33,149 bases of DNA from a virus. Within the stretch, counting starts at the first letter, position 1; each line of letters starts with the position of its first letter. The stretch spans positions 1 to 33,149 of the IMG/VR virus record IMGVR_UViG_3300010400_000042. One strand, written 5' to 3'. Below the pieces are notes generated by a model, which saw nothing but the letters and a program-made list of their open reading frames with translations, was not told the DNA's origin and ran no database searches. This document shows, in pieces, positions 1 to 30,076 of this stretch. Both the position numbers and the translations under genes were made by a program.

Positions 1-885
1 CCGCAGGAATCAGTCACGGTGCCGGCGAGCGAAATCATCCACGACATCATGTGCGCGCTCTACCATCCGCTCATCGGCGTGACGCCGATCTACGCCGCCG
101 GGATGGCCGCCGCGCAGGGACTCGCGATTCAGAACAACTCCACCAAGTTTTTCGGCGTGGGCTCGGCGCCGAGCGGCATCCTCACCGCGCCAGGATCGAT
201 CAGCGACGAGACCGCCGCCCGGCTCAAGGCGTACTTCGAAACGAATTTCGCGGGCGACAACATCGGGAAGGTCGCTGTCGCCGGGGACGGCCTCAAGTAC
301 GAACAACTGACGATGAAAGCGATCGACGCGCAACTCATCGAGCAGTTGAAGTGGACGGCCGATACGGTGTGCTCCTGCTTCCATGTGCCGCCCTACATGA
401 TCGGCGTCGGGCCGCCGCCGCCGTACGCGAACGTCGAACCGCTGGTGAAGCAGTACTACGCGCAGTGCTTGCAATCGCTCATCACCGCTCTGGAATCCAC
501 GCTCGATGAAGGACTCGCGCTCGGGCCGCAGTTCGGGAACCGGTACGGCACCGAATTCGATCCCGATGACCTCATTTGGCTCGACACGCAGACCAAGAGC
601 GCCGCGGCGCGCGATGGTGTCGGCGGGGCAATGTCCCCGAACGAAGCGCGGAAGAAGTACTACGGCCTCGGCCCGGTCAAGGGCGGGGAAGTGCCGATCC
701 TCCAGCAGCAGTACTGGCCGATCGATCAGCTCGCCGAGCGGCAGACACCGGGGATCCCGGCGGCGCCGACTGTCACGCCACCGAATGACGAGCCACCGGA
801 TGACGCTGCGGACACGGAGGACATGACCGCGAGCTTATCCGCGGCGCTCTTCCGCAAGGCGAGCGAGGAACTCTATGCCGCTTGA
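1..885 (+). CDS. Phage portal protein, HK97 type (5' end missing)
   Basis: This is the C-terminal part of an HK97-family portal, the dodecameric ring at the capsid vertex through which DNA is packaged and ejected. The frame is open from base 1, so the true start lies outside the window; a GTG at 19 is internal and should not be taken as the start. Family-typical segments are the helical stretch IIHDIMCALYHPLIGVTPI, the SDETAARLKAYFE helix, and the CFHVPPYMIGVG segment followed by a long alpha-helical stem (QYYAQCLQSLITALESTL). The C-terminus is Pro/Asp-rich and probably flexible. Its last 11 bases overlap the next gene. The portal assignment is solid; the missing N-terminus prevents a length comparison. 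Confidence 0.9.
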   Translation, partial: PQESVTVPASEIIHDIMCALYHPLIGVTPIYAAGMAAAQGLAIQNNSTKFFGVGSAPSGILTAPGSISDETAARLKAYFETNFAGDNIGKVAVAGDGLKYEQLTMKAIDAQLIEQLKWTADTVCSCFHVPPYMIGVGPPPPYANVEPLVKQYYAQCLQSLITALESTLDEGLALGPQFGNRYGTEFDPDDLIWLDTQTKSAAARDGVGGAMSPNEARKKYYGLGPVKGGEVPILQQQYWPIDQLAERQTPGIPAAPTVTPPNDEPPDDAADTEDMTASLSAALFRKASEELYAA

Positions 886-1156
886 TCCGGAGCGGCTCGC
901 CGCCGATGTCGTGACGATCGTCAAGGGCGCGCTCGCGCCGATGCAGACGCGCGTGAAGGATCTCGAAACGAAGGTCGCCGCGATCCCCGCGCCGGTCGTC
1001 GAGGACGAACCGGACGCCCTCGCGGCGAGTTTCACCGGGTTGCTACAGAACGAACTCACGGCGCTGGAATTGGCGGCGCCGACGCAGAAACGAGTCGTTC
1101 GGGATGCCCAGGGCCAGATTGCCCGGGTGGTTGAGGAGCCGGTCGCAGAACCGTAG
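875..1156 (+). CDS. Small protein following portal, coiled-coil-like
   Basis: Encodes 93 residues and overlaps the portal 3' end by 11 bases (the ATG lies inside the last portal codons), so translation is probably coupled. The N-terminal half is amphipathic helix/coiled-coil (residues 5-38). An acidic Pro/Ala linker follows, then a C-terminal segment with a charged VVRDAQGQIARVVEEP motif. No catalytic motif is visible. A short protein directly after portal could be a scaffold, head-assembly cofactor or remnant of one. It is too short to be a protease or major capsid protein. Function unknown. Confidence 0.75.
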   Translation: MPLDPERLAADVVTIVKGALAPMQTRVKDLETKVAAIPAPVVEDEPDALAASFTGLLQNELTALELAAPTQKRVVRDAQGQIARVVEEPVAEP

Positions 1157-1176
1157 GAGTGCGGCGAAGGGCGACG

Positions 1177-1201
1177 CCGGACCCGTCGAAATCGGGTTCG
1201 G
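1177..1201 (+). other. Hairpin 1 of the post-portal gap (terminator-like)
   Basis: CCGGACCCG pairs with CGGGTTCGG: a 9-bp stem including one G-U pair, with a 7-nt loop. It is followed by GATTTAT, a weak T-run, so an intrinsic terminator or mRNA-processing structure between portal and the next genes is possible. It is the first of three consecutive hairpins with 7-nt loops in the gap 1157-1311. Confidence 0.45.
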
Positions 1202-1219
1202 GATTTATCGCCCAACGTC

Positions 1220-1238
1220 GCGTGAAGGGTACTCACGC
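1220..1238 (+). other. Hairpin 2 of the post-portal gap
   Basis: GCGTGA pairs perfectly with TCACGC around a 7-nt loop (AGGGTAC). It sits in the same untranslated gap as the neighbouring hairpins at 1177-1201 and 1255-1273. Role unknown. Confidence 0.35.
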
Positions 1239-1254
1239 CAGCGGTTGAACGTCG

Positions 1255-1301
1255 CCCGGAGGGATTGTCCGGGACACACCGCCTCGGCGTCTGTCGGACA
1301 G
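1255..1301 (+). other. Hairpin 3 and two short palindromes upstream of gene 1312
   Basis: CCCGGA (1255-1260) pairs with TCCGGG (1268-1273) around a 7-nt loop. Overlapping it is the 11-nt palindrome TGTCCGGGACA (1266-1276), and 14 nt further the related palindrome CTGTCGGACAG (1291-1301), just 10 nt before the ATG at 1312. Such repeats could bind a late regulator or fold in the mRNA leader. No good promoter was seen. Confidence 0.35.
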
Positions 1302-1311
1302 GGGCGGACAG

Positions 1312-1728
1312 ATGGCGATTACCGCCGCCGTATGCAACTCGTACAAGCAGGAGATTCTTGCCGGCGTCCATCTCTCAGGCGATACCTACAAGATCGCGCT
1401 CTACACGTCTGCCGCGACGCTGTCGAAGGCGACGACGGCCTACAGCGCGACCAACGAAGTCTCTGGCGCCGGCTATACCGCCGGTGGCGCGACGCTCACC
1501 GGGTTTGCCAACGGCCTCGATACCGATACGGCGACGCTCGACTTTGCCGATGCGAGCTGGCCGAGCGCGACCATCACCGCCCGCGGCGCGCTCATCTACA
1601 ACTCGAGCCGGTCGAACAAGGCGGTCTGTGTCCTGGACTTCGGGGCCGACATCACGAGCACGAACGGGACATTTACAGTGACCTTCCCGGCCGCGACCGC
1701 AGGGGCCGCGACGGTGCGGATTACGTAG
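1312..1728 (+). CDS. Conserved phage virion-type protein
   Basis: A 138-residue, beta-rich protein of a family often found among phage structural genes. Recognisable segments are the start AVCNSYKQEILAGVH, then DTYKIALYTSAATL, TNEVSGAGYTAGGATLTG and ITARGALIYNSSRSNKAVC. No signal peptide, membrane helix or catalytic motif is present. It is the first gene after a 155-nt structured gap. The next gene starts immediately after its TAG (TAGATG). The family has no established function known to me; position and composition suggest a virion surface or head-decoration role, which is inference. Confidence 0.7.
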   Translation: MAITAAVCNSYKQEILAGVHLSGDTYKIALYTSAATLSKATTAYSATNEVSGAGYTAGGATLTGFANGLDTDTATLDFADASWPSATITARGALIYNSSRSNKAVCVLDFGADITSTNGTFTVTFPAATAGAATVRIT

Positions 1729-2406
1729 ATGGCCGCCCCCGTCGCCAGCAAGATCATCCTCCCGGTCGATACGGGCAACAGCGGCCCGAAGGTCCGCACC
1801 CAGACGCGGGTCGTCGGCGCGGACACCGTCCACGAACATTTCTTCATCCCGGAAACGCGACGCTCGCGGCTGGGGATTTACTACGCCGCCTCGGGCACGC
1901 TGACGATTCCCACGAGCGCGCAGAACGGGACCACGACGGGCCTGTTCTGGATCTACAACCCCGTGGGCTCGTCGGTGAAGATGGCGATTCGCCGCTTCGC
2001 GACGCAGATCCAGTTTGCCGTGACGAGCGCGATCGACGTCTCGATCCCGCGCCTCGCGTTCTCGCTCTTCACGTTCACGGGCACGGGATCGGGCGCACAG
2101 GTGACGCCGGCCAAGCGCTCCTCGGGCGACGCGAGTCCGGTCGGCAATCTGCGCACCGCGTCGACCGGCTTGACGGTGACGCTCGGCGCGATGATCAAAA
2201 GCGATTTCCCCGGCATCAACGCGACCGCCTCCAGTACGACGGTGCAATCGAACTTTCTGCCGGCGATTTCCAACGACTGGGATCCGCCCGAAGAGGAGCA
2301 GCCGGTCCTCCTGGCCGGCGAGGGCATCGTCTGCTGGGCTGCCGACGCGTCGACCACATCCAACCGGCGCACGTCGACGGATCTCATCTGGGAAGAGTAC
2401 GAGTAG
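1729..2406 (+). CDS. Putative virion structural protein
   Basis: 225 residues, rich in Thr, Ser and Val with alternating hydrophobicity typical of beta-sandwich virion proteins. The start abuts the previous stop. A segment near residues 25-50 (TRVVGADTVHEHFFIPETRR) and the C-terminal PVLLAGEGIVCWAADAST followed by LIWEEYE look like conserved blocks of phage structural proteins I cannot name. There is no transmembrane segment. It could be a minor head, decoration or fibre-base protein. It does not resemble an HK97-fold major capsid in length or in having an N-terminal delta domain. Confidence 0.6.
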   Translation: MAAPVASKIILPVDTGNSGPKVRTQTRVVGADTVHEHFFIPETRRSRLGIYYAASGTLTIPTSAQNGTTTGLFWIYNPVGSSVKMAIRRFATQIQFAVTSAIDVSIPRLAFSLFTFTGTGSGAQVTPAKRSSGDASPVGNLRTASTGLTVTLGAMIKSDFPGINATASSTTVQSNFLPAISNDWDPPEEEQPVLLAGEGIVCWAADASTTSNRRTSTDLIWEEYE

Positions 2407-3555
2407 ATGGCTGAGAACGCCTGGCTGCTGAACGACGTCGCGCCGGTCCCGCTGGCGCAGGAGTTTGCAGCGGCGGAAGCGCCGTCGACTGCGGTGTATT
2501 GGGGCGGGCCAGCCTCGATGGAATTCGCCGCGGGCGGCGCGGATGCGACTGCGACACCGTCCGGCGTCTCCGGCGTCACCGCCGTCGGCACCGTCAGCGC
2601 GAGCGGATCAGCCGCCACGACGCCGACCGGACAAGCCGCAACCGCCGCCATCGGCACGGCGACCGCCGGCGTCTCCGTCACGGCCCTCCCGTCCGGTGTC
2701 TCAGCCACCAGCGCGAACGGGTCACCCGTCGCGTCAGGCGCCGCGCTGACGCCGCCATCCGGGGTGCCGGCGGCGAGTGCCGTCGGGGCGCCCGCGTCCA
2801 CGGGCGGGGCGGGTAGCCAGCCGGTAGGGGTGCCTGGGGCGAGCGCGGTCGGATCGGCCTCAGGCGTCGGCGATGCGCGCTCGGCGCCGTCCGGCGTCTC
2901 GGCGACGTCCGCCGTCGGCACGGCCTCGGCGACCGGTGGAAACGCCGGCGACACCGACGCGCTGCCGTCGGGTGTCTCGGCCGTGGTGGCGGTGGGTAGC
3001 CCGCAAGCGATCGGGGATGCGCAGGCGGAACCCGCCGGCGTCAGCGCCTTCAGCTTCGTCGGGCGCGTGTTCGAACCCGTCGAAAGTCCACAGGACGCGG
3101 TCGTGGGCTGGGGCTACGCCTTCACGGTCCGCTCAACACCGTCGATCGCCGCTACGGCCCAACCGCGCGGCGTCACGGCCCGGGCCTCGGTGGGCCGCGT
3201 CACGGTCGATACGACCGCCCAGGCGATACCGGCCGGCCTCTCGGCGCACGCCGAGGCAGGAACACCCACCGCGACCGGGGATGTGCGGCTGGACGTGGTC
3301 GGGGCCTCCCTCCGAACCGCCAGCGGCGACGCCGACGCGTGGGACGTGCACGTGATCCCAGTCCGGCCCTATACGCCCGCCGAACGGCCTGGGACAGCGA
3401 CGCCGACCGGCGTGATCGCCCGCACCGCGTCCGGGCACGTCTGGGCAGAACCGGACGCCATCGATCGGGCCTGGACCGCGCTGCAGCAGGCGACGCCGAC
3501 GCTCGTCATCGATGACGAAGACGAGCTGCTCCATGACTGTGGAGCCTTCAAATGA
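2407..3555 (+). CDS. Virion-type protein with 22-residue Gly/Ala/Ser/Thr repeats
   Basis: 382 residues. A 46-residue head is followed by tandem repeats with consensus xPSGVSAxxAVGxxxAxGxA. The P-S/T-G-V/Q anchors fall at residues 51, 73, 95, 117, 139, 161, 187 and 209, a 22-residue period with one 26-residue step. Degenerate copies continue to about residue 350. The tail is acidic (DDEDELLHD). Such short beta-strand repeats are seen in phage and bacterial surface proteins and probably form an extended filament. The ATG follows the previous TAG directly, and its stop overlaps the collagen-like gene (ATGA). The Ser/Thr-rich exposed repeats would be plausible acceptors for the downstream sugar-transfer genes (inference). 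Confidence 0.7.
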
Positions 3556-4097
3556 CCGTGAAAGATCTGGCGCTTCTCGCGAAGGGTCTGGCGCCGGTGC
3601 TCTGGGATCTCAAGCAGCGCCTCCTCGCGGTCGAACGGAAGGAACGCGGGCTGGACGGCAAGGACGGGCCGACCGGACCACCCGGACCACCAGGACCGCC
3701 GGGACGGGATGGGCGCGACGGCGTGCCGGGCGCGCCAGGGATCCCCGGCGAGAAAGGCGTCGACGGGCGGCACGGGCAGGACGGCCTCGGCTTCGATGAC
3801 TTGGCCGTACTCCACGACGGCGCGCGCGGGGTGACGTTCCGGTTCATCAAGGGCGACCGAATCAAGGAATTCCACGTCACCATCCCGGCGGTCATCTATC
3901 GCGGCGTCTATACCGATGGGAAGACCTACGACGTCGGGGATACCACGACGTGGGGCGGATCGCTCTGGCACTGCAACGAACCAACGACGACCAAGCCCGG
4001 CGAAGGATCGAAGGCGTGGACGCTGACGGTCAAGCGCGGTCGGGATGGGAAAGATGGGCAGGACGCGCCGAGCCTGCCGGTGGTGAAGGTGCGATGA
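3552..4097 (+). CDS. Collagen-like fibre protein with carbohydrate-binding-like C-terminal module
   Basis: 181 residues. After an N-terminal helix (about 1-35) comes a Gly-X-Y tract (about 36-78, [16 protein letters not shown] and continuing) expected to form a trimeric collagen-like helix. A linker leads to a module around residues 115-155 containing [26 protein letters not shown] and W-x-L. This pattern resembles the CBM5/12-like (chitin/cellulose-binding) modules seen in phage tail and virion proteins. A second short GRDGKDGQD tract follows. Translation is coupled to the repeat protein (ATGA) and to the next gene (ATGA). The likely role is a trimeric virion fibre that binds surface polysaccharide. 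Confidence 0.75.
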
Positions 4098-4300
4098 GCC
4101 TGCAACTCTGGCAAATCGTGACGGCCGTCATCACTGTTGCGGCTGTCCTGACACTCCTCTTTGGAATCGAAGCGCGCGCAGAACGCCGCGTGCGCCGCGA
4201 GAACGAGCGGCGAGAGCGTGAGTATCAACACGCCGTTGAACAGGCGCGACGGGATCGCACGCAGCCGCCGGTCCCGCCGAATCGGGTGGTGCGTCGATGA
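4094..4300 (+). CDS. Small single-pass membrane protein
   Basis: 68 residues. The start is the ATG at 4094, which overlaps the previous stop (ATGA). One hydrophobic helix lies at residues 6-25 ([20 protein letters not shown]). A strongly charged, Arg/Glu-rich helix follows, and the Pro-rich end overlaps the next start (ATGATG). N-out/C-in or the reverse cannot be decided. It could be a membrane anchor for the adjacent sugar-transfer enzymes or a lysis accessory. Function unknown. Confidence 0.65.
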
Positions 4301-4923
4301 TGCCCGCCGCCGCTGTCACGCCGCCGCCCGCCGTTGTCGAGCAGCGCTGGCCGGGATCCACGATCACGATCCTTGGCGGCGGGCCGAGCCTGACCGAAGA
4401 GGACGTGCGCTACGTCGGCGAGCGCCCGCACCTCACGCGCACGATCGCCATCAAAGACGCCTATCTGCTCGCGCCGTGGGCCGATGTGCTCTACGCGTGC
4501 GACGTCTCCTGGTGGCGCTACTTCAACGGGGCGCCGACGTTTCGCGGGCTCAAGTACACGCTCGAAGCGCCGTATCCAGGCGTGGTGCAGCTCCGGAATA
4601 CCGGCATGGAAGGCCTTGAACTCGATCCCTCCGGGCTGCGCACGGGACAGAACTCCGGCTATCAGGCGATCAACCTTGCCGTCCACTTGGGCGCGACCCG
4701 CGTGTTGTTGCTGGGATACGACTGCTGGCCGGCGCCCGATGGACGGCAAAACTGGTTCCCGAAACAGCGGCCACATCTTGACTCGCCGTATCCGATCTTC
4801 CTGCAACTGTTCGGGACGATTGTCGATCCGCTCAGGGCGGCGGGCGTCGAGGTGATCAACTGCTCCCGGACGACGCTGCTCCGGGCGTTTCCGCGGATGC
4901 CGCTCGAAGAGGTGCTGCTGTGA
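4297..4923 (+). CDS. DUF115/MAF-like sugar-transferase-related protein
   Basis: 208 residues. Near the N-terminus, residues 21-31 read STITILGGGPSL, the glycine-rich nucleotide-binding loop of DUF115/motility-associated-factor and sialyltransferase-like folds. The later block TGQNSGYQAINLAVHLGATRVLLLGYDC carries the N-S-G helix and the strand ending in GYD that are typical of this superfamily. Known relatives transfer nonulosonic or other sugars, or bind phosphorylated sugar nucleotides. It is the first of four sugar-transfer-type genes within the late operon. The exact donor and acceptor cannot be read from sequence. Confidence 0.65.
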   Translation: MMPAAAVTPPPAVVEQRWPGSTITILGGGPSLTEEDVRYVGERPHLTRTIAIKDAYLLAPWADVLYACDVSWWRYFNGAPTFRGLKYTLEAPYPGVVQLRNTGMEGLELDPSGLRTGQNSGYQAINLAVHLGATRVLLLGYDCWPAPDGRQNWFPKQRPHLDSPYPIFLQLFGTIVDPLRAAGVEVINCSRTTLLRAFPRMPLEEVLL

Positions 4924-5162
4924 GCCGAGTCGGATTCGTCACGGCCCAGACGCATCCGATGGCGAAGGTGCGACTCGATGGCGTCGACGTGTCGGCGCGA
5001 AGTTTCGCGGCCGACGACATCGAAGGATTCGTCGACGTCTACAAGATCAATCAGGACGGGAAGAAGTATCTGGTTGAAGGGCCAGACGGTCAGCGGGTCG
5101 TGGCACAAGAGCGACTGCGCGGCGTAGTCGAGATCGAGCTTCCAGAGAAGGTGCGCGCGTGA
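4920..5162 (+). CDS. Small hypothetical protein in the sugar-transfer cassette
   Basis: 80 residues. It starts at GTG 4920, which overlaps the upstream stop (GTGA), and its own stop overlaps the GTG of the next gene. It is predicted beta-rich, with a KKYLVEGPDGQRVVAQERLRG segment suggesting a small SH3-like or KOW-like barrel. Phage transferase cassettes often carry such small proteins; the function is unknown. Confidence 0.6.
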   Translation: MSRVGFVTAQTHPMAKVRLDGVDVSARSFAADDIEGFVDVYKINQDGKKYLVEGPDGQRVVAQERLRGVVEIELPEKVRA

Positions 5163-5950
5163 TCCCCGTCTCCTACTACGCGCCGGACGAACTCACCTCG
5201 CCGAAGTTCGCCTACGCCTTCGCCAAGGGCTGTCACGGCAGCATGACGACCGCCGACGTGTTACCGGAGCATCTGCGGATCGATGGCCGTCGGTTAGGCG
5301 CGGCCCCGGTGGCCTTCTTCGGCTCGCCCTCGCAGTGGCCGGTGTTGCGAAAAGCGCAAGCGGTCGGGCGCGACTGGTACTACGGCGATCACGCGTACTT
5401 CGGGCGGAAGACGTTTTACCGGATCACGAAGAACGCCTACCAGCACGACGGGACGGGCGACGCCGGCCCGGAACGCTTCGCCGCCTTCGGCCGCGAGGTG
5501 CAACCGTGGCGCGCGACCGGCCGCCACGTTCTCGTTTGCCCGAACAGCAACATCCATTTCGCCCTGCACGGGGAGGACGGCGACCTCTGGCTGAAGCAGG
5601 TCATCGCGACGCTGCGCACCGTGACGGATCGCCCGGTGCGTGTCCGGTGGAAGCGCGGCAACCGCGTCCGCATCATCGAAGACCTGAAAGACGCCTGGGC
5701 GGTCGTGGTCTACAGCAGCGCCGCGGCGCTCGACGCGCTCATCGCCGGTGTCCCGGTCTTCGTCACCGCGCCCTTCGCGGCGGCGTACCGCATGGGCCTC
5801 GCGGATGTGCAGTCCATCGAGTCGCCGATCTATCCCGACGGCCGCGAGCCGTTCCTCTGGAACCTCGCGGCGCACCAGTGGACGCTCTCGGAAATCTATC
5901 GCGGGATGGCGTGGCGATCGTTGACGGCGGAGGTGCCCCTTGCTGCTTGA
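5159..5950 (+). CDS. GT-B-like phage glycosyltransferase-type protein
   Basis: 263 residues with a GTG start in a GTGA overlap. The C-terminal half has the look of a Rossmann-type donor domain: GRHVLVCPNSNIHFAL, then RPVRVRWKRGNRVR, DLKDAWAVVVYSSAAALDAL and AGVPVFVTAPFAAAYRMGL. The last two segments are reminiscent of the conserved Ser/Asp-containing donor loop of capsule and glycerol-phosphate transferases and related GT-B enzymes. The C-terminal FLWNLAAHQWTLSEI is conserved in phage relatives as I recall them. It is probably cytosolic (no membrane helix) and acts with the adjacent enzymes. Substrate unknown. Confidence 0.6.
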   Translation: MIPVSYYAPDELTSPKFAYAFAKGCHGSMTTADVLPEHLRIDGRRLGAAPVAFFGSPSQWPVLRKAQAVGRDWYYGDHAYFGRKTFYRITKNAYQHDGTGDAGPERFAAFGREVQPWRATGRHVLVCPNSNIHFALHGEDGDLWLKQVIATLRTVTDRPVRVRWKRGNRVRIIEDLKDAWAVVVYSSAAALDALIAGVPVFVTAPFAAAYRMGLADVQSIESPIYPDGREPFLWNLAAHQWTLSEIYRGMAWRSLTAEVPLAA

Positions 5951-6698
5951 TCCCCCCTATCGGCTCTTCATCGGCGCGGATGCGCACGAAGACCGCGCGG
6001 TCGCCGTGGCGCTGGCGTCGATGGCCCAGTACACCAATCCGCACGACGTCGAGGTGACGCACCTCAATCGCCAGATGCTCGGCGCGCTCTATCACCGCCC
6101 GACGACCACCATGCCGAACGGGCAGTTGTTCGACGACATCTCCGACGCGCCGATGTCGACCGATCACGCCATCGCCCGATTCTTTGTCCCGTATCTGTGC
6201 GGGTATCAGGGCTGGGCCGTGTTCGTCGATGGGGACGTGCTGTTCCGGGAGGATCTCCGGCGGCTGTTTCAGATGGCCGATCCGCGCTACGCCGTGAAAG
6301 TAGTGCAGCACCCGCCGTTGCTCGTGGAAGGGGCGAAGAAAGCCGGGCATGTCCAGCAGGTGTATCCCCGGAAGAACTGGTCGAGCGTGGTGCTCTGGCA
6401 CTGCGGCCATCCGGCCAATCGGGCTTTGACGATCGATGTGCTCAACACCTGGCCGGGGCGCGATCTGCACGCGTTCAGTTGGCTCCCCGACGACCGGCTC
6501 ATCGCCAGCTTGCCCGACCGGTGGAATTACCTACTGGGCGTCTCCCAGCCGAATCGGCTGCCGGCCTTGGTGCATTTCACCTTGGGCACGCCGGACCTGC
6601 GGGAGTACGAGGAACCGGAACACTTCTGGTGTGACCAGTGGCACGCGGTCGCACGACGGATCGAACAGGAGGCGGTACGGGCTACGGTGACGAAATAG
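5940..6698 (+). CDS. GT8-like (GT-A fold) glycosyltransferase
   Basis: 252 residues. The start is TTG 5940, supported by GGCGGAGG at 5926-5933 six bases upstream; no ATG or GTG fits. The fold is GT-A: RLFIGADAHEDRAVAVALAS at the nucleotide-binding strand, then FVDGDVLF (DGD at residues 97-99), the metal-binding DxD motif, and WSSVVLWHC. The C-terminal ALVHFTLGTPDL block with its His matches the HxxGxxKPW-like site of GT8. It transfers a hexose from a UDP-sugar in known relatives. The 5' end overlaps the previous gene by 11 bases. Confidence 0.75.
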   Translation: MLLDPPYRLFIGADAHEDRAVAVALASMAQYTNPHDVEVTHLNRQMLGALYHRPTTTMPNGQLFDDISDAPMSTDHAIARFFVPYLCGYQGWAVFVDGDVLFREDLRRLFQMADPRYAVKVVQHPPLLVEGAKKAGHVQQVYPRKNWSSVVLWHCGHPANRALTIDVLNTWPGRDLHAFSWLPDDRLIASLPDRWNYLLGVSQPNRLPALVHFTLGTPDLREYEEPEHFWCDQWHAVARRIEQEAVRATVTK

Positions 6699-7465
6699 TC
6701 GCGGCGGGACAGGCGCAGCGGATTCACGACACGTACGGGTCGAGAGTTCAGATCTGCGGCCTCGACGGCACACCTCGGTGGCACCCGATCTGGGAGGGCA
6801 ATCCCATCATCGCGCGCCCAGAGGAGCCGTTTGTCCACGGCCAATTCCTGGAGAGTGGACCGGGCTGCCGGCCGTACATCGTGTATCCGTTCGATGAACG
6901 GACCGGCTGGACGTTCAATAAAGACTTCAAATGCCGGGACCACATCGCGAAGCTGTACCTCACCGATCCGGAACGACAGCGCGGCGAGCAGGCGCGCGCG
7001 CGCTACGGGCCGCATGTGCTCATCGAGCCCTACACCAAGCATCAGAACTTCCGCTGGCCGATCGAGCGGTGGGATGCGCTCGTGAAGGCGTGCCCGGACC
7101 TGACGTTTGTGCAGCACACGCACCGGGAGTCGATTCCGGTGATGGGCGCGCATCAGGAACCCGCGACCTTCCGTGAGGCGTGCGGGCTGCTGACCGGCTG
7201 CGACCTCTACGTGCGATCGGAAAGCGGCCTCTGTCACGCCGCGGCCGCGCTCGGGATTCCCCAGGTGACGCTCTTCGGCGGCTGCATGGATCCGGACGTC
7301 ATGGGCTACTACCCGCAGCAGACCGTGATCGCCGATACCGGCGAGGGGTCGCCCTGCGGGCGGTGGTTGCCCTGCGCGCATTGTCATGAGGCGATGCGGC
7401 GGATCACGGTGGAGCAGGTGGTCGAGGCGATGCGTCAGCAGCTCGCGCAGCGGAGGGCCGCATGA
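6638..7465 (+). CDS. GT9-like (heptosyltransferase-type) glycosyltransferase
   Basis: 275 residues from the GTG at 6638, which would overlap the previous gene by 61 bases. A strong AGGAGG at 6667-6672 sits five bases before an in-frame ACG (6677), after which the protein reads GYGDEIVAAGQAQRI, the expected N-terminal motif of this family. Initiation at ACG is therefore possible. The C-terminal domain resembles the ADP-heptose transferase donor domain: LIEPYTKHQNFRWPIERW, then CDLYVRSESGLCHAAAALG and PQVTLFGGCMDPD. Two late Cys pairs are present (GSPCGRWLPCAHC). It is the last enzyme of the cassette and couples to the next gene (ATGA). Confidence 0.7.
   Translation: MARGRTTDRTGGGTGYGDEIVAAGQAQRIHDTYGSRVQICGLDGTPRWHPIWEGNPIIARPEEPFVHGQFLESGPGCRPYIVYPFDERTGWTFNKDFKCRDHIAKLYLTDPERQRGEQARARYGPHVLIEPYTKHQNFRWPIERWDALVKACPDLTFVQHTHRESIPVMGAHQEPATFREACGLLTGCDLYVRSESGLCHAAAALGIPQVTLFGGCMDPDVMGYYPQQTVIADTGEGSPCGRWLPCAHCHEAMRRITVEQVVEAMRQQLAQRRAA
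6667..6672 (+). promoter_or_regulatory. Ribosome binding site AGGAGG with no standard start downstream
   Basis: A perfect AGGAGG lies inside the end of the GT8 gene. The only codon at the right spacing in the GT9 frame is ACG 6677-6679; no in-frame ATG, GTG or TTG follows before the conserved GYGDE motif. The site therefore bears on the start choice for the GT9-like gene. Confidence 0.5.
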
Positions 7466-7683
7466 ATCGGCGCGAAGCCATCGCGGCGCTCGTCGCGCTG
7501 CCGGAAGTGGCTCGCATCTCCGCGGTGCCAGCCAGCGCCGATGACGTGATCGTCGTGGAATGCGATGGCGTGTTGGCTTCAGAAAGCGTCGCGCGCATCA
7601 AGGCGCAACTGGAGCAGGTGTGGCCTGACCGGACAATCGTGGTGCTGTCCGGCGAACTGCGGATCAAGGTGGCTCCGAAATAA
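7462..7683 (+). CDS. Small conserved phage protein
   Basis: 73 residues with an ATGA overlap upstream and a TAATG overlap downstream. The N-terminus MNRREAIAAL resembles a twin-arginine leader start but lacks a proper hydrophobic core and cleavage site. The rest is a compact alpha/beta unit (DDVIVVECDGVLASESVARIK, then DRTIVVLSGELRIKV), a pattern I associate with small proteins encoded near phage structural genes. Function unknown. Confidence 0.6.
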   Translation: MNRREAIAALVALPEVARISAVPASADDVIVVECDGVLASESVARIKAQLEQVWPDRTIVVLSGELRIKVAPK

Positions 7684-8219
7684 TGGCCGCGCTCGTCACC
7701 CTCACCGAAGCGTATACGCACCTGCGATTGTCGTTCGTCCTGAACACGTCACCGGTGGATCCGCGGCAGACCGACCTCGACGCCAAGCGGCTGCAGGCGT
7801 CCGACATCGTGCTCGATTACCTGAAGGGCCGGCCGATTCCGCTCACCTCCATCACGAGCAGTGGGGGCATTGCGACGGTGACCACGCCTTATCCGCACGG
7901 CCTGACGACCAACGATGTCGTGCGGGTCATCGGGACGGCGGAGCCGGAATACAGCGGCTCGTTCGTCTCGACGGTGACGAGCACGACGACCTTCACCGTC
8001 CCGATCAGCGGCTCGCCCGCGAGTCCTGCGACTGGCGGACGGCTGTTTGCGAATTTCACCTGGACGGACGTGACGGTGCCGACGCCGGTGAAGGCGGCGA
8101 TCCTGCTGGTCCTCACGCATCTCTGGGATCACCGCGGCGAGGACATGGCCGCCGACGAGAACCTGTGGAATGCCGTCGGGCGCCTGCTCGCCCGGATGCG
8201 GGATCCGGCGGTGGCCTGA
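7683..8219 (+). CDS. Head-tail connector (HK97 gp6-like)
   Basis: 178 residues. The N-terminus (LVTLTEAYTHLRL, then DAKRLQASDIVLDYLKG) and C-terminus (PVKAAILLVLTHLWDHRGE, then LLARMRDP) are the helices of the gp6/gp15-type adaptor ring that docks under the portal. Between them (about residues 58-125) is a Ser/Thr/Val-rich insertion with the pattern GGIATVTTPYPHGLTTNDVV, likely a small beta-domain also found in other phage proteins. It is the first of four head-tail joining genes in the usual order. Confidence 0.8.
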   Translation: MAALVTLTEAYTHLRLSFVLNTSPVDPRQTDLDAKRLQASDIVLDYLKGRPIPLTSITSSGGIATVTTPYPHGLTTNDVVRVIGTAEPEYSGSFVSTVTSTTTFTVPISGSPASPATGGRLFANFTWTDVTVPTPVKAAILLVLTHLWDHRGEDMAADENLWNAVGRLLARMRDPAVA

Positions 8220-8557
8220 TGGGGCGCAGCGACTATCGCCACCTCGTGACGTTGCAGGGGCCGACGACGACGGTGCCCGATGGACAGGGCGGGTATACGC
8301 AGACGCCGACGGCATTCACCCCGCCCACCTGGTACTGCTCGATTCGTCCGGCCTCGCAGCGCGATCTCGAGCGGGTGACTTCTGGGACCGCGCTCACGGT
8401 CGCGACGCACATCGTCGAGGGCGACTGGCGGGCGGATATCACCACCGCGACGCAGATCGTCTTTGGGACGCGCACGCTCTACGTCAACGACGTCAAGAAT
8501 CCGGAAGAGCGGAACATCACGCTGGTCCTGCTGTGTAACGAGGTGGTGTCGCCATGA
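8219..8557 (+). CDS. Head closure/head-tail joining protein (SPP1 gp16-like)
   Basis: 112 residues; the ATG at 8219 overlaps the previous stop (TGATG). The pattern is that of Phage_H_T_join proteins: HLVTLQGPTTTVPDGQGG at the N-terminus, W-x-C-S-I-R-P-A-S followed by ADITTATQIVFGTRTLYV and a terminal NITLVLLCNEV strand. It forms the stopper ring between connector and tail in SPP1-like phages. Assignment rests on pattern, size and position. Confidence 0.75.
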   Translation: MGRSDYRHLVTLQGPTTTVPDGQGGYTQTPTAFTPPTWYCSIRPASQRDLERVTSGTALTVATHIVEGDWRADITTATQIVFGTRTLYVNDVKNPEERNITLVLLCNEVVSP

Positions 8558-8706
8558 GCCTGCTCGAAATCCTGATCGTCATCCTGCTGGTCGCGTGGCT
8601 GTTCGGGGGCGTCATCTTCCCGGTCGGCACGTCGCTCGTGCATCTGATTCTCGTCGTCATCCTCATCCTGATCGTGGTGCGGTTGCTGCAGGGCCGATCG
8701 CTATGA
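8554..8706 (+). CDS. 50-residue membrane protein, Lmo0937/DUF5670-like
   Basis: The start is ATG 8554 (ATGA overlap), and the stop overlaps the ATG at 8703. Two hydrophobic helices (about residues 2-20 and 27-44) are separated by GVIFPVGTS, with LVHLILVVILILIVVRLLQG at the end. This matches the general layout of tiny Lmo0937/DUF5670-type membrane proteins of bacteria. Finding one between head-closure and gp10-like genes is unusual. It could be a small holin, an inner-membrane factor or a cargo gene. Confidence 0.6.
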   Translation: MSLLEILIVILLVAWLFGGVIFPVGTSLVHLILVVILILIVVRLLQGRSL

Positions 8707-9122
8707 GCACGAGCGTGACATGGACCGGGATTGACGAGTTTCGCGAGTGGCTGCGCAGTCTGCCCGTGGATGCCCCGCGCGAGGCGGAGAAGATCATCCA
8801 GGGCGAAGCCAATGCGGCGGCCTTCGCGATTCGCTCGCGCTATCCGGCCCGCACAGGAAACCTCCGCAGCAAGGTCGTCGTGCAGCGGCGGGTCAATCGC
8901 GCGGGCGTCGTGTCCTACGTCGTGAAGAACACCGCGAAGCACGCAGCGATCTTCGAGTACGGGACGCAGGCCCGGCACACGCGCATCGGCGCGAACCGTG
9001 GCTCGATGCCGTCTGGGCATGTCTTCATTCCGATTGTGCTGCAACGGCGGCGCACGATGTTTCTGCTCCTGAAGGATCTGCTGGTGCGGTTCGGGTTCAC
9101 GCGGGTGTTTGGCGATGCCTGA
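8703..9122 (+). CDS. HK97 gp10-like tail completion protein
   Basis: 139 residues with an ATGA overlap. The N-terminal helix with E-x-x-K-I-I-Q-G-E-A-N-A-A-A is followed by SRYPARTGNLRSKVVV, the hallmark P-x-x-T-G-x-L-R-x-x segment of HK97-gp10 family proteins. A later AAIFEYGTQARHT (usually x-x-x-E-x-G-T) confirms it. These proteins join tail tube and head completion ring. An Arg-rich stretch near the C-terminus reads LQRRRTMF. Confidence 0.8.
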   Translation: MSTSVTWTGIDEFREWLRSLPVDAPREAEKIIQGEANAAAFAIRSRYPARTGNLRSKVVVQRRVNRAGVVSYVVKNTAKHAAIFEYGTQARHTRIGANRGSMPSGHVFIPIVLQRRRTMFLLLKDLLVRFGFTRVFGDA

Positions 9123-9543
9123 TTCGCAGGACATCGACACGGCGCTGCTGACAAAACTCAGTAGCGATGCGACGCTGCTGTCCTATGTTCCGAACGGCGT
9201 CTACTTCGATGAAGCGCCGCCGAACTCGACACAGTTTGTGATCATCAGCCTGGTCGACGAGGCGGACGACGCGATTTTCGGCGGGCGCAAATTTGAGGAC
9301 GGGCACTATCTGATTAAGGCGGTGGCGCGCACGACCGCCATCAACGCCGCGTCGAACGTCCGCAGCGCCGCGGCCAGGATCGATGCGCTGCTCGAGGACA
9401 CGACGCTCACCGTGAGCGGCTATACGACGTTTGAAGTCTCGCGCGAGTCGCGGATTCGGATCACGGAAGTGGACGACGCCGATCCCACGATTCGCTGGTA
9501 TCACCGCGGCGGGCAGTACCGCGTGCAGATGACGCTGACCTAA
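9115..9543 (+). CDS. Tail terminator-like protein (DUF3168)
   Basis: 142 residues from ATG 9115; a TTG two codons upstream is less likely. The sequence fits DUF3168/gpU-type tail terminators: a short helix DTALLTKLSSDATLLSYV, then VYFDEAPPNSTQFVIIS and FEDGHYLIKAVART, a helix SAAARIDALLED, and a final strand YRVQMTL. It caps the tail tube and sets length together with the tape measure. The N-terminus overlaps the gp10-like gene by 8 bases. Confidence 0.7.
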   Translation: MPDSQDIDTALLTKLSSDATLLSYVPNGVYFDEAPPNSTQFVIISLVDEADDAIFGGRKFEDGHYLIKAVARTTAINAASNVRSAAARIDALLEDTTLTVSGYTTFEVSRESRIRITEVDDADPTIRWYHRGGQYRVQMTLT

Positions 9544-9568
9544 CCGGGCTGACGAAGGAGAAGACCAC

Positions 9569-9994
9569 ATGGCGATTAAGACGGGACGCTACGGGCGGGT
9601 GCGGTACAACGCGGCCGGTGCGGTATCTCCGCCCGCGCTCGTGGCCATCATCGGCCTCAACGCGTGGACGCTGAGTCTCAAGCAGGACTACGAAGAGGTG
9701 ACGCAGTTCGGCGACACGAACAAGGTGTATGTGCCGGGGATGCAGGACATTCAGGGCACGCTCGCCGGGCACTACGACGGCACCGACACGACGCTCGTCG
9801 CCGCGTCTCATGCCGCCACGCCGGGGATGCTGGAGCTCGCCTACAACACGACCGACACGCTCGGCAGTCCCGCGGCGGCGCAGACCTTCTCCGGGCTCGC
9901 CTATCTCGACGCGGAGATCAACGCGGCCGTGGCGAACGCGCCGAAAGTCTCGGCGACGTTCCGAGCGGCCGGCAGTTGGACGTTGCCTGCGTAA
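9569..9994 (+). CDS. Major tail tube protein
   Basis: 141 residues, preceded by a good ribosome binding site (GAAGGAGAAG), one of few genes here with its own 25-nt leader, in keeping with high expression. The N-terminus is KTGRYGRVRYNAAG. A mid segment with VTQFGDTNKVYVPGMQDIQG and GTLAGHYDG matches tail-tube proteins that wind around the tape measure, where DxK/VPG and the ITG-like strand form the inner barrel. Position between terminator and tail assembly chaperone supports the call. Confidence 0.75.
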   Translation: MAIKTGRYGRVRYNAAGAVSPPALVAIIGLNAWTLSLKQDYEEVTQFGDTNKVYVPGMQDIQGTLAGHYDGTDTTLVAASHAATPGMLELAYNTTDTLGSPAAAQTFSGLAYLDAEINAAVANAPKVSATFRAAGSWTLPA

Positions 9995-9997
9995 GGC

Positions 9998-10279
9998 ATG
10001 TTTGACCGGCTCACGCTGCGCGGGGCGCGAGCCTCGATTGTCTGGGGCTATCGCACGGCGGCGGCGCTCTCGTCGTGGTCGATTTCCAAGGAAGCGACGG
10101 GCTGGGTGCTGCGGGCGACGTGTGAAGGCGCGATCGATCGGTTCATGCTGCGGCAGACCCAGCCGACGCTGATCTTCACCGCGCCGCGGCACTACGGGCA
10201 GTCCTGCTGGCCGATTGTGGGGGCTGTGCAGGTGGGAGACACGACACTGGTTGCCACGCTCGGGCCGCCCGAGCAATGA
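9998..10279 (+). CDS. Small tail-region protein, function unknown
   Basis: 93 residues between tail tube and tail chaperone genes, starting 3 bases after the previous stop. It is a beta-rich small protein with WSISKEATGWVLRATCEGAI and a C-terminal VGAVQVGDTTLVATLG. It may be a minor tail tube or tube-cap protein. No motif identifies it. Confidence 0.6.
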   Translation: MFDRLTLRGARASIVWGYRTAAALSSWSISKEATGWVLRATCEGAIDRFMLRQTQPTLIFTAPRHYGQSCWPIVGAVQVGDTTLVATLGPPEQ

Positions 10280-10291
10280 GGAGACGAGTCG

Positions 10292-10675
10292 ATGGGGATT
10301 CGGTTTGTCGTGCCGGAGACGATCACGTTGCCCCTGAGCGACGGGGATGCTATCCAGGTGAAAAAGCGGCTCTCCCACGGCGAGCGTGACGCGATGTTCA
10401 AGCTCGCCCGGGAGTCCGGCAATCTGCGCAGCGCGGAGCTCGTCGCCTACGTGGTGGGGTGGTCCTCCGCGACGCCCTACACGCTGGCGATGTCCGAGCG
10501 GGAACGGCTGGACATCATCAACGGGCTCGACCCGGACAGCTTCGACGAAATGCAGGCGGCGCTGCTCGCGCATCTCGAGGCACAAGCCCAGGAAAAAAAA
10601 CGCCGGAATGGCGCGAGCGCGTCCGAGCCGACCTCCGACTCGCGGCCCGTTTTGGTTGGCGCTACGAGTGGGTGA
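10292..10675 (+). CDS. Tail assembly chaperone, short form (gpG-like)
   Basis: 127 residues. It starts with ATG 10292 after a GAGGAGACGAG ribosome site. The N-terminal domain has VVPETITLPLSDGDAIQVKK and RLSHGERDAMFKL, followed by a helix-rich body. In lambda-like phages the G protein coats the tape measure during tail assembly. The A-run at 10593-10600 near its end provides a -1 slippery site that would give a longer G-T fusion. The residues downstream of the run in this frame (ASASEPTSDSRP) are low-complexity, as expected when the reading frame in use switches. Confidence 0.75.
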   Translation: MGIRFVVPETITLPLSDGDAIQVKKRLSHGERDAMFKLARESGNLRSAELVAYVVGWSSATPYTLAMSERERLDIINGLDPDSFDEMQAALLAHLEAQAQEKKRRNGASASEPTSDSRPVLVGATSG

Positions 10676-10737
10676 GGGCGCTCGATGCGGACGTGCATGA
10701 CGTGGCGGTGGAGTTGATTCTCACAGGCGAACTGTAG
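10292..10737 (+). CDS. Tail assembly chaperone, frameshifted fusion (gpGT-like)
   Basis: A -1 shift at A-AAA-AAA (10594-10600) joins the N-terminal domain to the frame ending at the TAG 10735-10737. This gives about 148 residues ending in TPEWRERVRADLRLAARFGW, then YEWVRALDADVHDVAVELIL. That C-terminal domain resembles T-domain ends (Y-x-W-V-x-x-L-x-x-D-V-x-D-V) of known gpGT proteins. The T domain has no start codon of its own near the junction. The tape measure ATG follows the stop at once (TAGATG). Confidence 0.8.
10594..10600 (+). promoter_or_regulatory. -1 ribosomal frameshift slippery heptamer A-AAA-AAA
   Basis: Eight adenines (10593-10600) are placed so that zero-frame codons are GAA AAA AAA CGC. 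The X-XXY-YYZ heptamer A-AAA-AAA starts at 10594, and slipping back one base enters the T frame. This is the standard arrangement for tail chaperone genes of siphoviruses. The stimulatory downstream structure could not be folded by eye. Confidence 0.8.
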
Positions 10738-12051
10738 ATGGCGATCCAGGGCATCTTCCTCGCGGACTTCTCGCAGTACAACGCCGCCGTCGACCAGGCG
10801 GATGCGAAACTGCGCAAGTTCACGTCCGCGACGACGACACATGATGCCGCGGTCACGCAGTTCACCCACGGCACGGCGACCGCGACCAACGCCTTCGGCT
10901 CGCTCTCGACCGGCCTCGCGGCGGCGGACAAGACGCTCGCGGCCTTCGGCGTTCACATCGGGCCGGAGATTCACGCGCTCGAGGAAATGTCGCAGGCCGC
11001 CGGCAAGACGGCCAGCCAGATCGGCCTGATCGGCACGGCCAGTCTCACGGCCGCGGCGGCGCTCGGGGGCTTCGAGATCGGGAAACTGATCAACCAGTTC
11101 ACCGGGTTGGACGAGGCGGTGTCGCGCTGGATCGACCGCACGTTTGATCTCGCGGTCGCCCAACAGGAAGCAGGCGCGAAGCAGGACGTGATCAATCGGG
11201 CGATCAAAAACGGGGCGGACTCGACCATCACCTATACCGAAGCGGTCCAGTTCAACATCGAGGCGGAGAAGAAGCGCATCGAGACGCTCGGCGAGAGTGC
11301 GAAGGCGCAGAAGAAAGCCGCGGACGAACAAGCGGCGGCGCTGGAAAAAGAGCGCGCGGCGACGGAAGCCTACGCCAAGAAACTCAGCGACATTGAAGCC
11401 CGCTTGTTCGGCGGCGACGCCATCGCGAAGGCCAAAGATTACATGGCCACGCTGATCGACGTGAAGAACGTCACCGGCCTGAACACCGACGCGCTCGCCG
11501 AGTTGAACACGGTCCTGACAGAAGGCTTCGGCCGGTTGGTCGAGCAGGGCGGCGCGGCGACCGACCTGGCGACCAAGATGAACGAATGGCGGCTGGCCGT
11601 CCTCGCCGCCCAGCAGACGCACACGGTGGCCACGACCCAGATGGAATCCGACGAAGCGCGGCTCGCGCGCGAATCCGACGAACTCGCGCGGGCGATGAAA
11701 GAGAACTTCGTCATCATCGGCCAGTCCGCCCAGGAGGCGGCACAGAAGACGGCCATGTCGTGGAATGACGCGATGGCGGCGGTGCGCGCGGGACAGGGCA
11801 CGCTGGGCGGCTCTTTTCAGAGCGTGGCCCCTGGCACCGCGGGATCGTCCATTCGGTACGACGACTACGGCAACCCATACGGCTACATCCCGGGCGTGAA
11901 CCTGCCTGGCCGGACGTCGCCCAGCGGCGGCCATAACATCTTCGTCGACGCGCGGGAATCGATGTTCGACACGCCAGCCGGGATGCAGCGGTTGGCGGAG
12001 AAAGTGGTCACCGCGCTCGGGACGCAGTCCGCCAGCCGAGGGGGCCGCTGA
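10738..12051 (+). CDS. Tape measure protein (short)
   Basis: 437 residues, alpha-helical, directly after the tail chaperone genes. The N-terminal region has alternating helices. A hydrophobic segment at about residues 95-125 (QIGLIGTASLTAAAALGGFE) is followed by a long coiled-coil at about 165-225 rich in Lys/Glu/Ala. A Gly-rich C-terminal part carries SSIRYDDYGNPYGYIPG and a final helix. Tape measures fix tail length at about 0.15 nm per residue, so this predicts a tail near 65 nm. This is short for the class, and no peptidase domain is visible. Stop and next ATG overlap (TGATG). Confidence 0.8.
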   Translation: MAIQGIFLADFSQYNAAVDQADAKLRKFTSATTTHDAAVTQFTHGTATATNAFGSLSTGLAAADKTLAAFGVHIGPEIHALEEMSQAAGKTASQIGLIGTASLTAAAALGGFEIGKLINQFTGLDEAVSRWIDRTFDLAVAQQEAGAKQDVINRAIKNGADSTITYTEAVQFNIEAEKKRIETLGESAKAQKKAADEQAAALEKERAATEAYAKKLSDIEARLFGGDAIAKAKDYMATLIDVKNVTGLNTDALAELNTVLTEGFGRLVEQGGAATDLATKMNEWRLAVLAAQQTHTVATTQMESDEARLARESDELARAMKENFVIIGQSAQEAAQKTAMSWNDAMAAVRAGQGTLGGSFQSVAPGTAGSSIRYDDYGNPYGYIPGVNLPGRTSPSGGHNIFVDARESMFDTPAGMQRLAEKVVTALGTQSASRGGR

Positions 12052-18850: not shown

Positions 18851-19552
18851 TCACAGCGAGGAGACGAGAATCTCGACGCGGCCGGCGGCGCGCGTGCTGC
18901 CATCCTGAAGTTTTGCCGTCGCCGTCACGACGTAGACGCCATTCTGCTGGTAGTGATGCGTCACCGCCGAGGCGGGACCGTTGATGAGCCCGGCGCTGCC
19001 ATCGCCGAAGTCCCAGGTGATCGAGGAGACGGGGCCGACGGTCGTGGGCGTGAACGTCCACCGTTGCACGCCGCCTTCCGGCACGGCTGACGCCACGGCA
19101 ATATCCACCGAGACGAGATCCGTCACGACGATCGGCGGCTCGACGTGCAGGGGCAATTGCGCGCTGGTCGTCACGCCGTTCTGCGCTTCGACCACCGCCC
19201 GCACGACGACATCTCCGGCGGTGGCCCACCGACAACTGAAGCGGATATCGGAGCCGATCCCGGCGCCCAGATTGATCACGGTGCCGTTGCCGCAGTCCAC
19301 CAGCACGCGGCTCGGCGTCGTGATGAGCGCGCCTTCGTGCGGCAGGACGGAGAGGAAGCCCAGCCAGGCGCTATCGGCAATCGCGAAGGTGGTGCCGTTG
19401 CGCAGCGTCACGTCAAAGGCGGTGAATTGGGGCAGGCGCGGCCCCGTGGAGGGCGCTCCCGGTGTCGTCGCGGACGGGGCGACCGGTGTTAGTTGCTCGG
19501 CGTTGCAGCCGGCAAGGAACAGGGCGACGGCCAAGGGGATGAATTTCGCCAT
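18851..19552 (-). CDS. PKD-domain lipoprotein (probable moron)
   Basis: 233 residues on the opposite strand from the late genes. The signal peptide MAKFIPLAVALFLAGC ends in a lipobox (LAGC, Cys16). An Ala/Pro/Thr linker is followed by two PKD-like units. The first is degenerate with Cys pairs (VLVDCGNGTVINLG, RFSCRWATAGDVVV). The second is canonical with WDFGDGSAGLINGP, then HHYQQNGVYVVTAT. It is expected on the outer face of a Gram-negative outer membrane or in the periplasm. It is isolated, with a 212-nt gap upstream. Surface lipoproteins in prophages often block superinfection; that is inference here. Confidence 0.7.
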   Translation of the reverse strand: MAKFIPLAVALFLAGCNAEQLTPVAPSATTPGAPSTGPRLPQFTAFDVTLRNGTTFAIADSAWLGFLSVLPHEGALITTPSRVLVDCGNGTVINLGAGIGSDIRFSCRWATAGDVVVRAVVEAQNGVTTSAQLPLHVEPPIVVTDLVSVDIAVASAVPEGGVQRWTFTPTTVGPVSSITWDFGDGSAGLINGPASAVTHHYQQNGVYVVTATAKLQDGSTRAAGRVEILVSSL

Positions 19553-19764
19553 ACCTAATCACTGTATCGGACGGTGCAAGATAAATCGTGTGCTGTCAGA
19601 CGATCGCGGACAAGAATTGCGCGTCTCGGAGAACAATTACGATCTCCGCTCTTGCGCTCAGTAAAGTGGGCCCACTAGTATGCCCGCGCCGTACGGACCT
19701 CGGCCCCACACGAGGATGAAATTACGCATGGCGCGCGTGCTCCCGTTCACGCTGACGGCGACGG
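19553..19764. other. Intergenic region between lipoprotein and repressor
   Basis: 212 bases, more A/T-rich than its surroundings. On the minus strand this lies between the repressor stop and the lipoprotein start, so it should hold the lipoprotein promoter. CTGACA and TTGCAC occur on that strand but without convincing -10 partners. It contains the 12-bp palindrome AGTGGGCCCACT at 19665-19676. No tRNA or tRNA fragment was recognised. Confidence 0.4.
19665..19676. other. 12-bp palindrome AGTGGGCCCACT
   Basis: A perfect 12-bp dyad with no loop. It may be a regulator site for the lipoprotein promoter, or part of the repressor mRNA 3' end; it lacks a T-run and so is a poor intrinsic terminator. 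Confidence 0.3.
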
Positions 19765-20313
19765 TTACTTCGGACGCTTCCGCCCGCGTGCTGGAGCGTG
19801 AGTTGTTGGCCCACTTCCGCGGACTAGGCTCGACAGATCGTCAAGGTTTGGCGCTTCTGGCGCGTGCGCTCCACGCGGACCGGCAATGTGCATCACATGG
19901 ACCCACCGGCGGATCTGCGCCTGCTGGTCGTCTCCCAGGTCCCGGAACTCCTCTAAAAGTCCGACCTCCTCGGGTAGCACGCCGACCAAATACTCGGTGA
20001 GGGTGACCAGGTAATCCTGAATCACCGGGGGCAACAGGCGCAGTGCGCGAACGAGGCGCGCCTCTGACGGCCGTAAATCGTATAGCTCGTCGCCCCGCCG
20101 TATCAGGTCGCCGGCGGTCGTGCGCAGGTGAAACGCCGCACGGTCCAAGTCTTCTAACTGCAGGGCATTACGCCCATCCTTGATCGCGTTGATCCAGCCG
20201 TCCTTGTAGCCCATCTTCCGCGCGAAGGCTCGGGCGTTCATGCCTAACTCGTCGAGGCGTTCCTTGATCCGTTGGCTGACTCGCTCTTTGGCCGTCGCGT
20301 CGGAGGCGGTCAT
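19765..20313 (-). CDS. CI-like phage repressor, XRE HTH
   Basis: 182 residues from ATG at 20313 (minus); a GTG 39 nt upstream would add 13 residues. An N-terminal XRE helix-turn-helix spans about residues 8-68: RVSQRIKERLDELGMNARAF, then ARKMGYKDGWINAIKDGRN, EDLDRAAFHLRTTAGDLI. The C-terminal part is helical (ALRLLPPVIQDYLVTLTEYL) with a basic Pro/Arg end. There is no LexA/S24 peptidase site (no Ser/Lys dyad), so RecA-stimulated self-cleavage is unlikely. It is divergent from a Cro-like gene, as in lambda immunity regions. No ribosome site is visible before the ATG, and the promoter spacing suggests a leaderless mRNA. Confidence 0.75.
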   Translation of the reverse strand: MTASDATAKERVSQRIKERLDELGMNARAFARKMGYKDGWINAIKDGRNALQLEDLDRAAFHLRTTAGDLIRRGDELYDLRPSEARLVRALRLLPPVIQDYLVTLTEYLVGVLPEEVGLLEEFRDLGDDQQAQIRRWVHVMHIAGPRGAHAPEAPNLDDLSSLVRGSGPTTHAPARGRKRPK

Positions 20314-20321
20314 GGGATACC

Positions 20322-20330
20322 CGTATATCA
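20322..20330 (-). promoter_or_regulatory. Predicted repressor promoter (extended -10, minus strand)
   Basis: On the minus strand TG-A-TATACG forms an extended -10 with 8 nt between the hexamer and the repressor ATG at 20313. This places the transcription start at or within 1-2 nt of the start codon. The -35 is weak (GAAAGT at 17-nt spacing), consistent with a promoter needing activation. Confidence 0.5.
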
Positions 20331-20406
20331 CTGGTTTTACTGCTACTTTCACGTTTCTGCCGCGCGTATACAGAAAGCACTTGATCCGTTCACTCTTAGT
20401 GATATA
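20324..20406. promoter_or_regulatory. Nested dyad operator region of the divergent switch
   Basis: TATATCACT (20324-20332) and AGTGATATA (20398-20406) are perfect 9-bp inverted repeats. TTTCTG (20354-20359) and CAGAAA (20371-20376) form an inner pair. Both pairs share the exact centre 20365, between the two promoters. The outer half-sites overlap the two -10 regions, so a bound repressor could silence both directions, possibly by looping. Confidence 0.5.
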
Positions 20407-28094: not shown

Positions 28095-28606
28095 CGGCGG
28101 CCCATTGCGACCAGCAGATCGACCGGTTGCGCGTGCTGCGCGGCGTCCCTGGTGACGTGGTCGAGTATTTCGCGGCGCTCCAAGACGTGCCGGACGATCT
28201 GTTTTCCCGCGCCGTGAACCACGCCATCCGGACCCGGCAGTGGTTTCCGACGCCGGCGGAGTTGCGCGCCGATTGCGACGCCGTCAACACGCTGCCCCTG
28301 CCGCTGCCCGAGCCGCACGTCGAAGACCTGGTCGGCCGCGGACGCGAGCTCGTCCTGACTAATCCGGCGAGCGGGATCGACATCCGGATCCCGATTACCA
28401 GGCTCTGGCGGTTCGACTGTGCGACGTGCGGGGACAGCGGCTGGCACCCGCGGGCGTGTCCGGTCGAGCCGTGCGGCCGAGACTTCGAGCACGCGGCGCA
28501 CGAATGGGTCGAACCCTGTGCCTGTCGATCGTGGAACCCAACGCTGCGGCGACGCCGCGAGGCAAATGCGAAGTACGCGCAGCCACCGGAGAAGGTGGGC
28601 ACGTGA
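28091..28606 (+). CDS. Replication-partner protein with Cys-rich module
   Basis: 171 residues from GTG 28091 (GTGA overlap). The N-terminal helical unit has VEYFAALQDVPDDLFSRAVN, then RQWFPTPAELRADCDAV. The C-terminal part carries Cys110, Cys113, Cys123, Cys128, Cys143 and Cys145 (CATCGDSGW, CPVEPCG, CACRSW), probably zinc-binding. The pairing after a DUF1376 gene and the WFPTPAELR motif resemble proteins that may help load host helicase. Function inferred from position. Confidence 0.55.
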   Translation: MTAAHCDQQIDRLRVLRGVPGDVVEYFAALQDVPDDLFSRAVNHAIRTRQWFPTPAELRADCDAVNTLPLPLPEPHVEDLVGRGRELVLTNPASGIDIRIPITRLWRFDCATCGDSGWHPRACPVEPCGRDFEHAAHEWVEPCACRSWNPTLRRRREANAKYAQPPEKVGT

Positions 28607-29916: not shown

Positions 29917-30076
29917 TCGTGGAGTCATCGAGTGGAGAGGTCTCCTGAAGCAGGCAGAGGAAGAAGAACGACGAAGAGGATGCGCGCGGGCGTACCCAGT
30001 GGTGACTCGTGGCGACAGGAACTACCGCGCAGTAATCAGAAAGCTGATTCGTGGCACGTAATTCGGAGGACGGACG

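Follow-up and report, generated by a model that had tools for sequence, protein, structure and literature searches.

A cassette of four putative sugar-transfer enzymes is inserted between the head genes and the head-tail connector gene of the phage analysed here, and glycosylation of the virion by a pathway starting with a Maf-like enzyme is the explanation that we favour, with about as much doubt as confidence. A custom sugar chain would probably be attached to the phage's own particle; attachment to the host surface is less likely. The stretch of DNA under study (the window) is a linear IMG/VR virus record of 33,149 bases, to which neither a near match nor a near-identical cultured phage was found among 50,697 phage records. 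Its 5' end lies inside the portal gene (PF04860), and the terminase and protease-capsid gene upstream of the portal are supplied by an overlapping contig, L097, whose portal is 100% identical to that of the window. The portal is followed by three small genes, a 22-residue-repeat protein, a collagen-like protein, a 68-aa ORF and the cassette, after which come a 73-aa ORF, the connector, a head-tail adaptor, a gp10-like protein and a tail-tube-like protein. Elsewhere, positions 28504-31099 likely hold a DNA-modification group (nucleoside 2-deoxyribosyltransferase-like, phrog_355; Mom-like, phrog_1384; N6/N4 methylase), and two genes on the minus strand (18851-20352), for a PKD-domain protein and a repressor-like HTH protein, form a possible lysogeny or moron pair. 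The features around the cassette are as follows.

2407..3555, plus strand: 22-residue-repeat protein, proposed acceptor; not found in cassette-bearing relatives
3552..4097, plus strand: collagen-like virion protein with a CBM5/12-like domain at its C-terminus; frequent in relatives, whether or not they carry the cassette
4094..4300, plus strand: 68-aa protein with an N-terminal hydrophobic segment (from sequence); 4-nt overlap with both neighbours
4297..4923, plus strand: DUF115/Maf-like transferase consisting of the catalytic domain alone; probably performs the first step
4920..5162, plus strand: 80-aa ORF coupled between the DUF115 and GT-B genes
5159..5950, plus strand: small GT-B protein with the predicted KpsC/WbbB (CMP-Kdo transferase) fold; Asp and HP motifs not kept in its subclade
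5940..6698, plus strand: GT8-like GT-A enzyme with an invariant DxD (97-99) and His212
6638..7465, plus strand: GT9 (heptosyltransferase-like) enzyme
7462..7683, plus strand: 73-aa ORF between the GT9 and connector genes
7683..8219, plus strand: head-tail connector; its homologue in L099 lies directly 3' of the collagen gene (empty site)

A preliminary description of this DNA had placed a four-gene cassette of DUF115-like, GT-B-like, GT8-like and GT9-like enzymes, coupled head to tail, at 4297-7465. All four are there, within a span that holds five ORFs rather than four, the extra one being the 80-aa ORF, and the small ORFs of 68 and 73 aa adjoin the block on either side. Coupling is evident, with successive ORFs from 2407 to 7683 overlapping by at least 4 nt throughout and the ORF at 4094-4300 bridging the collagen and DUF115 genes; no sigma-70-like promoter was found in positions 1-12000. 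The enzymes would be produced together with the virion proteins.

The cassette is an accessory insertion. Among the portal-anchored loci (the best 80 of 594 matches, not fully independent of one another), 51 show both portal and connector, and 49 of these have no DUF115 gene in between. The gap between the two genes has a median of 784 bases in those 49, against about 4 kb in the two loci with DUF115. Further loci (L334, L338, L341 and L356) carry DUF115 with the connector out of view or undetected. In L099, whose portal is 63% identical to that of the window, the end of the collagen gene is the start of a 170-aa connector homologue. Dozens of contigs have a DUF115 gene flanked by portal/collagen or capsid genes on one side and by the connector on the other.

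What accompanies DUF115 varies widely among the 46 loci, window included, in which the stretch from DUF115 to the adaptor is unbroken. We scanned 133 non-redundant ORFs from 32 of these intervals against Pfam, leaving out DUF115 itself, and used 133 other ORFs of the same loci as a control. The interval ORFs matched GT2 (15), Glyco_trans_1_2 (6), GT-D (4) and GT9 (2), i.e. about 27 of 133 if these families are summed as non-overlapping, versus one glycosyltransferase match (GT2) in the control. Three FkbM methyltransferases, other methyltransferases (up to 12 members in one family), a GDP-mannose-dehydratase-like epimerase and radical-SAM proteins were also detected, as compared with about two methyltransferase matches in the control set. 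In L021 (532-2522), such an epimerase and a radical SAM/SPASM protein follow DUF115. In relatives lacking DUF115, sugar genes of other kinds occur in this operon, namely one for a TylF-like methyltransferase, which precedes the portal gene, and those for a methyltransferase and a Glyco_trans_1_2 protein ahead of the tail-tube gene; in L099, L101 and L103, a different set of glycosyltransferases and methyltransferases is split over two places of the structural operon. The window would thus carry one allele of an accessory glycan cassette whose enzymes are exchanged in other phages for different glycosyl- and methyltransferases, and the coat would therefore differ between phages, probably allowing evasion of recognition or tuned adsorption.

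The DUF115 protein matches phrog_4603, 'alpha-2;3-sialyltransferase' (E 2.4e-36), and Pfam MptE-like/DUF115 (PF01973; E 2.7e-4) at 21.2 bits, below the curated cut-off of 34.6. Its best sequence-profile matches, to Cst-II sialyltransferases, are weak (E 0.02). In the PDB, the AlphaFold model (pLDDT 95) convincingly matches one structure only, that of the flagellin glycosyltransferase Maf (5mu5; E 2.5e-5, probability 1.00, query TM 0.62), the other match below 0.001 aligning poorly. Maf O-glycosylates flagellin Ser/Thr residues with nonulosonic acids, its central domain is PF01973, and the Maf of Clostridium botulinum also accepts CMP-Kdo (PMC11339370). The window protein shares the predicted fold of that central catalytic domain and differs from Maf in having one domain of 208 aa instead of three, without the N- and C-terminal domains, and in not lying beside flagellin genes; the His of the family's HW motif is replaced by Asn in it and in a few relatives. 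Judging from the model, it is probably related to the catalytic domain of Maf, stands alone and performs the first step of the pathway.

No significant sequence family was found for the GT-B protein. Its model (pLDDT 82) matches KpsC, WbbB and KrkA, all Kdo transferases, with E values down to 2.6e-7 (6mgc; probability 1.00, TM about 0.5), and thus has the predicted GT-B fold of the beta-Kdo transferases KpsC and WbbB. Unlike these, the window subclade lacks the catalytic-type Asp motif: the GQVxxDxS and RPHP motifs of KpsC and WbbB are kept in seven other members of the GT-B family, whereas the window protein has CPNSNIHFAL and VRWK in their place and its near relatives lack them too. By chain count, the phage Asp lies one position off that of the WbbB entries, and the correspondence concerns the motif, not the residue. 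Because the motifs are missing, the activity of the window GT-B protein is uncertain, and it may be inactive or altered.

The GT8-like protein scores below the Pfam cut-off for GT8 (PF01501; E 0.018, 15.1 bits versus 24.3), but its profile matches the GT8 enzyme 5gvv and WbbM (E 0.0015), and the DGD motif at residues 97-99 (D97, D99) and H212 are invariant in 12 aligned relatives. Its subfamily (L113-L192) occurs at no fewer than 556 places in bacterial genomes, often without other cassette genes and many of them in Mesorhizobium. The GT9 protein exceeds its cut-off (PF01075; E 3.2e-11, 43.4 bits versus 22), with a profile match to heptosyltransferase II (E 2e-5). The set resembles enzymes for the transfer of Kdo or nonulosonate, heptose and hexose from host donors, in support of the earlier proposal that the structural operon contains a cassette for sugar transfer whose donors would come from the host. 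In the mechanism that we propose as the simplest, DUF115 would act in the cytoplasm, transferring a CMP-activated ulosonic acid (host Kdo or nonulosonate) to a Ser or Thr residue of a virion protein, and the KpsC/WbbB-like GT-B, GT9 and GT8 enzymes would extend it with host sugars (Kdo-like, heptose and hexose).

The proposal that the virion is glycosylated gains a concrete first step from the Maf-like fold of DUF115, while the acceptors named for it, the two proteins encoded just upstream, are not supported. The 22-residue period of the first is real (P.G at residues 51, 73, 95, 117, 139 and 161), but the label 'Ser/Thr-rich' is weak, as S+T amounts to 20% overall and 26% in the repeat core versus 21-25% in several other window proteins. 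When co-occurrence with the cassette was checked, no counterpart of this protein was found in cassette-bearing relatives, the closest of them included, L013 (portal 92% identical), in which the stretch from portal to DUF115 is too short to encode it; only six weak repeat-type matches (30-32% identity) were recovered. The collagen-like gene is often found without the cassette (20 of the 22 collagen-bearing loci among the best 80 of 594 portal matches) and went undetected in roughly half of the loci anchored on DUF115. Nor does composition single it out, S+T being 3-11% in all collagen-like proteins, the same with or without DUF115, and Thr being rare in Gly-X-Y. Collagen-type proteins of 732-966 aa with DGxDGKDADPExxRSLV-type repeats and short Gly-X-Y runs only were observed in L006, L107 and L111. 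Rank correlations of DUF115 with portal and with collagen were weak (0.27 and 0.16) and uninformative as to co-evolution. Neither the repeat protein nor the collagen is a supported acceptor, and either could still serve in this phage; by analogy with mycobacteriophages, a capsid or tail-tube protein is a possible one.

That no acceptor was identified counts against virion glycosylation, as do the loss of the GT-B motifs, the His-to-Asn change in DUF115, the absence of the other two Maf domains and the position of a related block near lysis genes in phage CcrColossus. Several members of the set, moreover, resemble LPS or capsule enzymes, so that a surface acceptor fits too. The main rival, which we consider possible but rather unlikely, is that the enzymes alter the host LPS core or capsule late in infection, which would block superinfection or keep progeny from re-adsorbing to debris. 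GT9 and GT8 count among the classic families of LPS-core enzymes, the fold predicted for the GT-B protein is shared by Kdo transferases of LPS and capsule, modification of the LPS core draws on enzymes of these classes, and soluble glycosyltransferases can still act on a lipid-linked core; the named hosts of cultured DUF115 phages are also Gram-negative, except for records labelled as algal viruses. However, the cassette occupies a late structural position in many phages, which would be a poor site for superinfection exclusion, no membrane partner resembling a flippase or Gtr protein was seen, and the DUF115 fold points to an enzyme with a protein acceptor.

A protein acceptor could also be a host surface protein (flagellin or pilin), used or masked as a receptor. 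Maf naturally glycosylates flagellin (PMC11339370), and phiCbK-type Caulobacter phages, to which CcrColossus is related, have a head filament associating with the flagellum (PMC3556154), but phages whose genome types differ greatly share this type of cassette and its DUF115 stands alone without the Maf accessory domains, making this reading improbable. Less probable still is that some cassette proteins, above all DUF115, are virion components and not working enzymes: DUF115 homologues bear the label 'structural protein' in the PAJU2 and Eowyn records and the catalytic-type motifs differ in the window, yet those labels come without a stated basis, the GT8 and GT9 motifs are conserved and the slot also accommodates many sugar enzymes that are unrelated. 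Glycosylation of hypermodified phage DNA, of which phage glycosyltransferases are capable (PMC12619734) and with which the Mom-like, nucleoside-deoxyribosyltransferase-like and DNA-methylase genes of the window would be in keeping, is very improbable, given that these genes lie ~20 kb from the cassette, that no hydroxymethyl-pyrimidine synthesis gene was seen among the proteins scanned and that the DUF115 fold is Maf-like.

Virion glycosylation, the reading that we prefer, has been documented in very few phage groups, and none of the literature searched joined DUF115, glycosyltransferase and phage. More tentatively, and with the balance tilting against it, the window may exemplify a widespread, O-antigen-like variable locus of tailed-phage structural operons, in which a Maf-type initiator and interchangeable enzymes would build lineage-specific virion glycans, here an LPS-core-like (Kdo-heptose-hexose) mimic. 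The cultured phages CcrColossus, D3 and PAJU2 would allow a direct test of whether such a swappable glycan locus recurs at the head-tail junction, with a Maf-like enzyme as its probable initiator. If real, the locus would have implications for how hosts and immune systems recognise phages, for adsorption and for the interpretation of the many 'alpha-2,3-sialyltransferase' annotations in phage genomes.

Comparable gene sets recur in phages and bacterial genomes. Phage-like loci were found in Mesorhizobium jarvisii (L113: terminase, capsid, DUF115, GT8, GT9, GT-B, portal) and in a Hyphomonadaceae MAG (L147: collagen, DUF115, GT8, GT9); it is therefore plausible that the window phage infects an alphaproteobacterium. 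In Caulobacter phage CcrColossus, a tail gene is directly followed by genes for putative enzymes of the same four families in unchanged order (gp126-gp131: DUF115, GT-B, GT-B, GT8, methyltransferase, GT9; annotated as sialyltransferase-like, NDP-sugar transferase and GT9), but it is a giant siphophage with two GT-B copies, a methyltransferase and a block near lysis genes. The detreviruses D3 (orf7) and PAJU2 (ORF010) likewise carry DUF115 among head and head-tail (connector) genes, and PAJU2 also has the pair of portal and collagen-protein-type C-terminal domain; the accompanying set is different ('alpha-2;3-sialyltransferase', hypothetical protein, methyltransferase), with no GT8 found. In mycobacteriophages (Che8 and others), phage-encoded glycosyltransferases are associated with virion-protein glycans, as in the system proposed here, and the glycans are located on capsid and tail-tube subunits (Freeman et al. 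2023, as cited in PMC11256854 and PMC12619734), whereas the glycans of the window system are predicted, with donors that would be of Gram-negative types and a Maf-like first enzyme.
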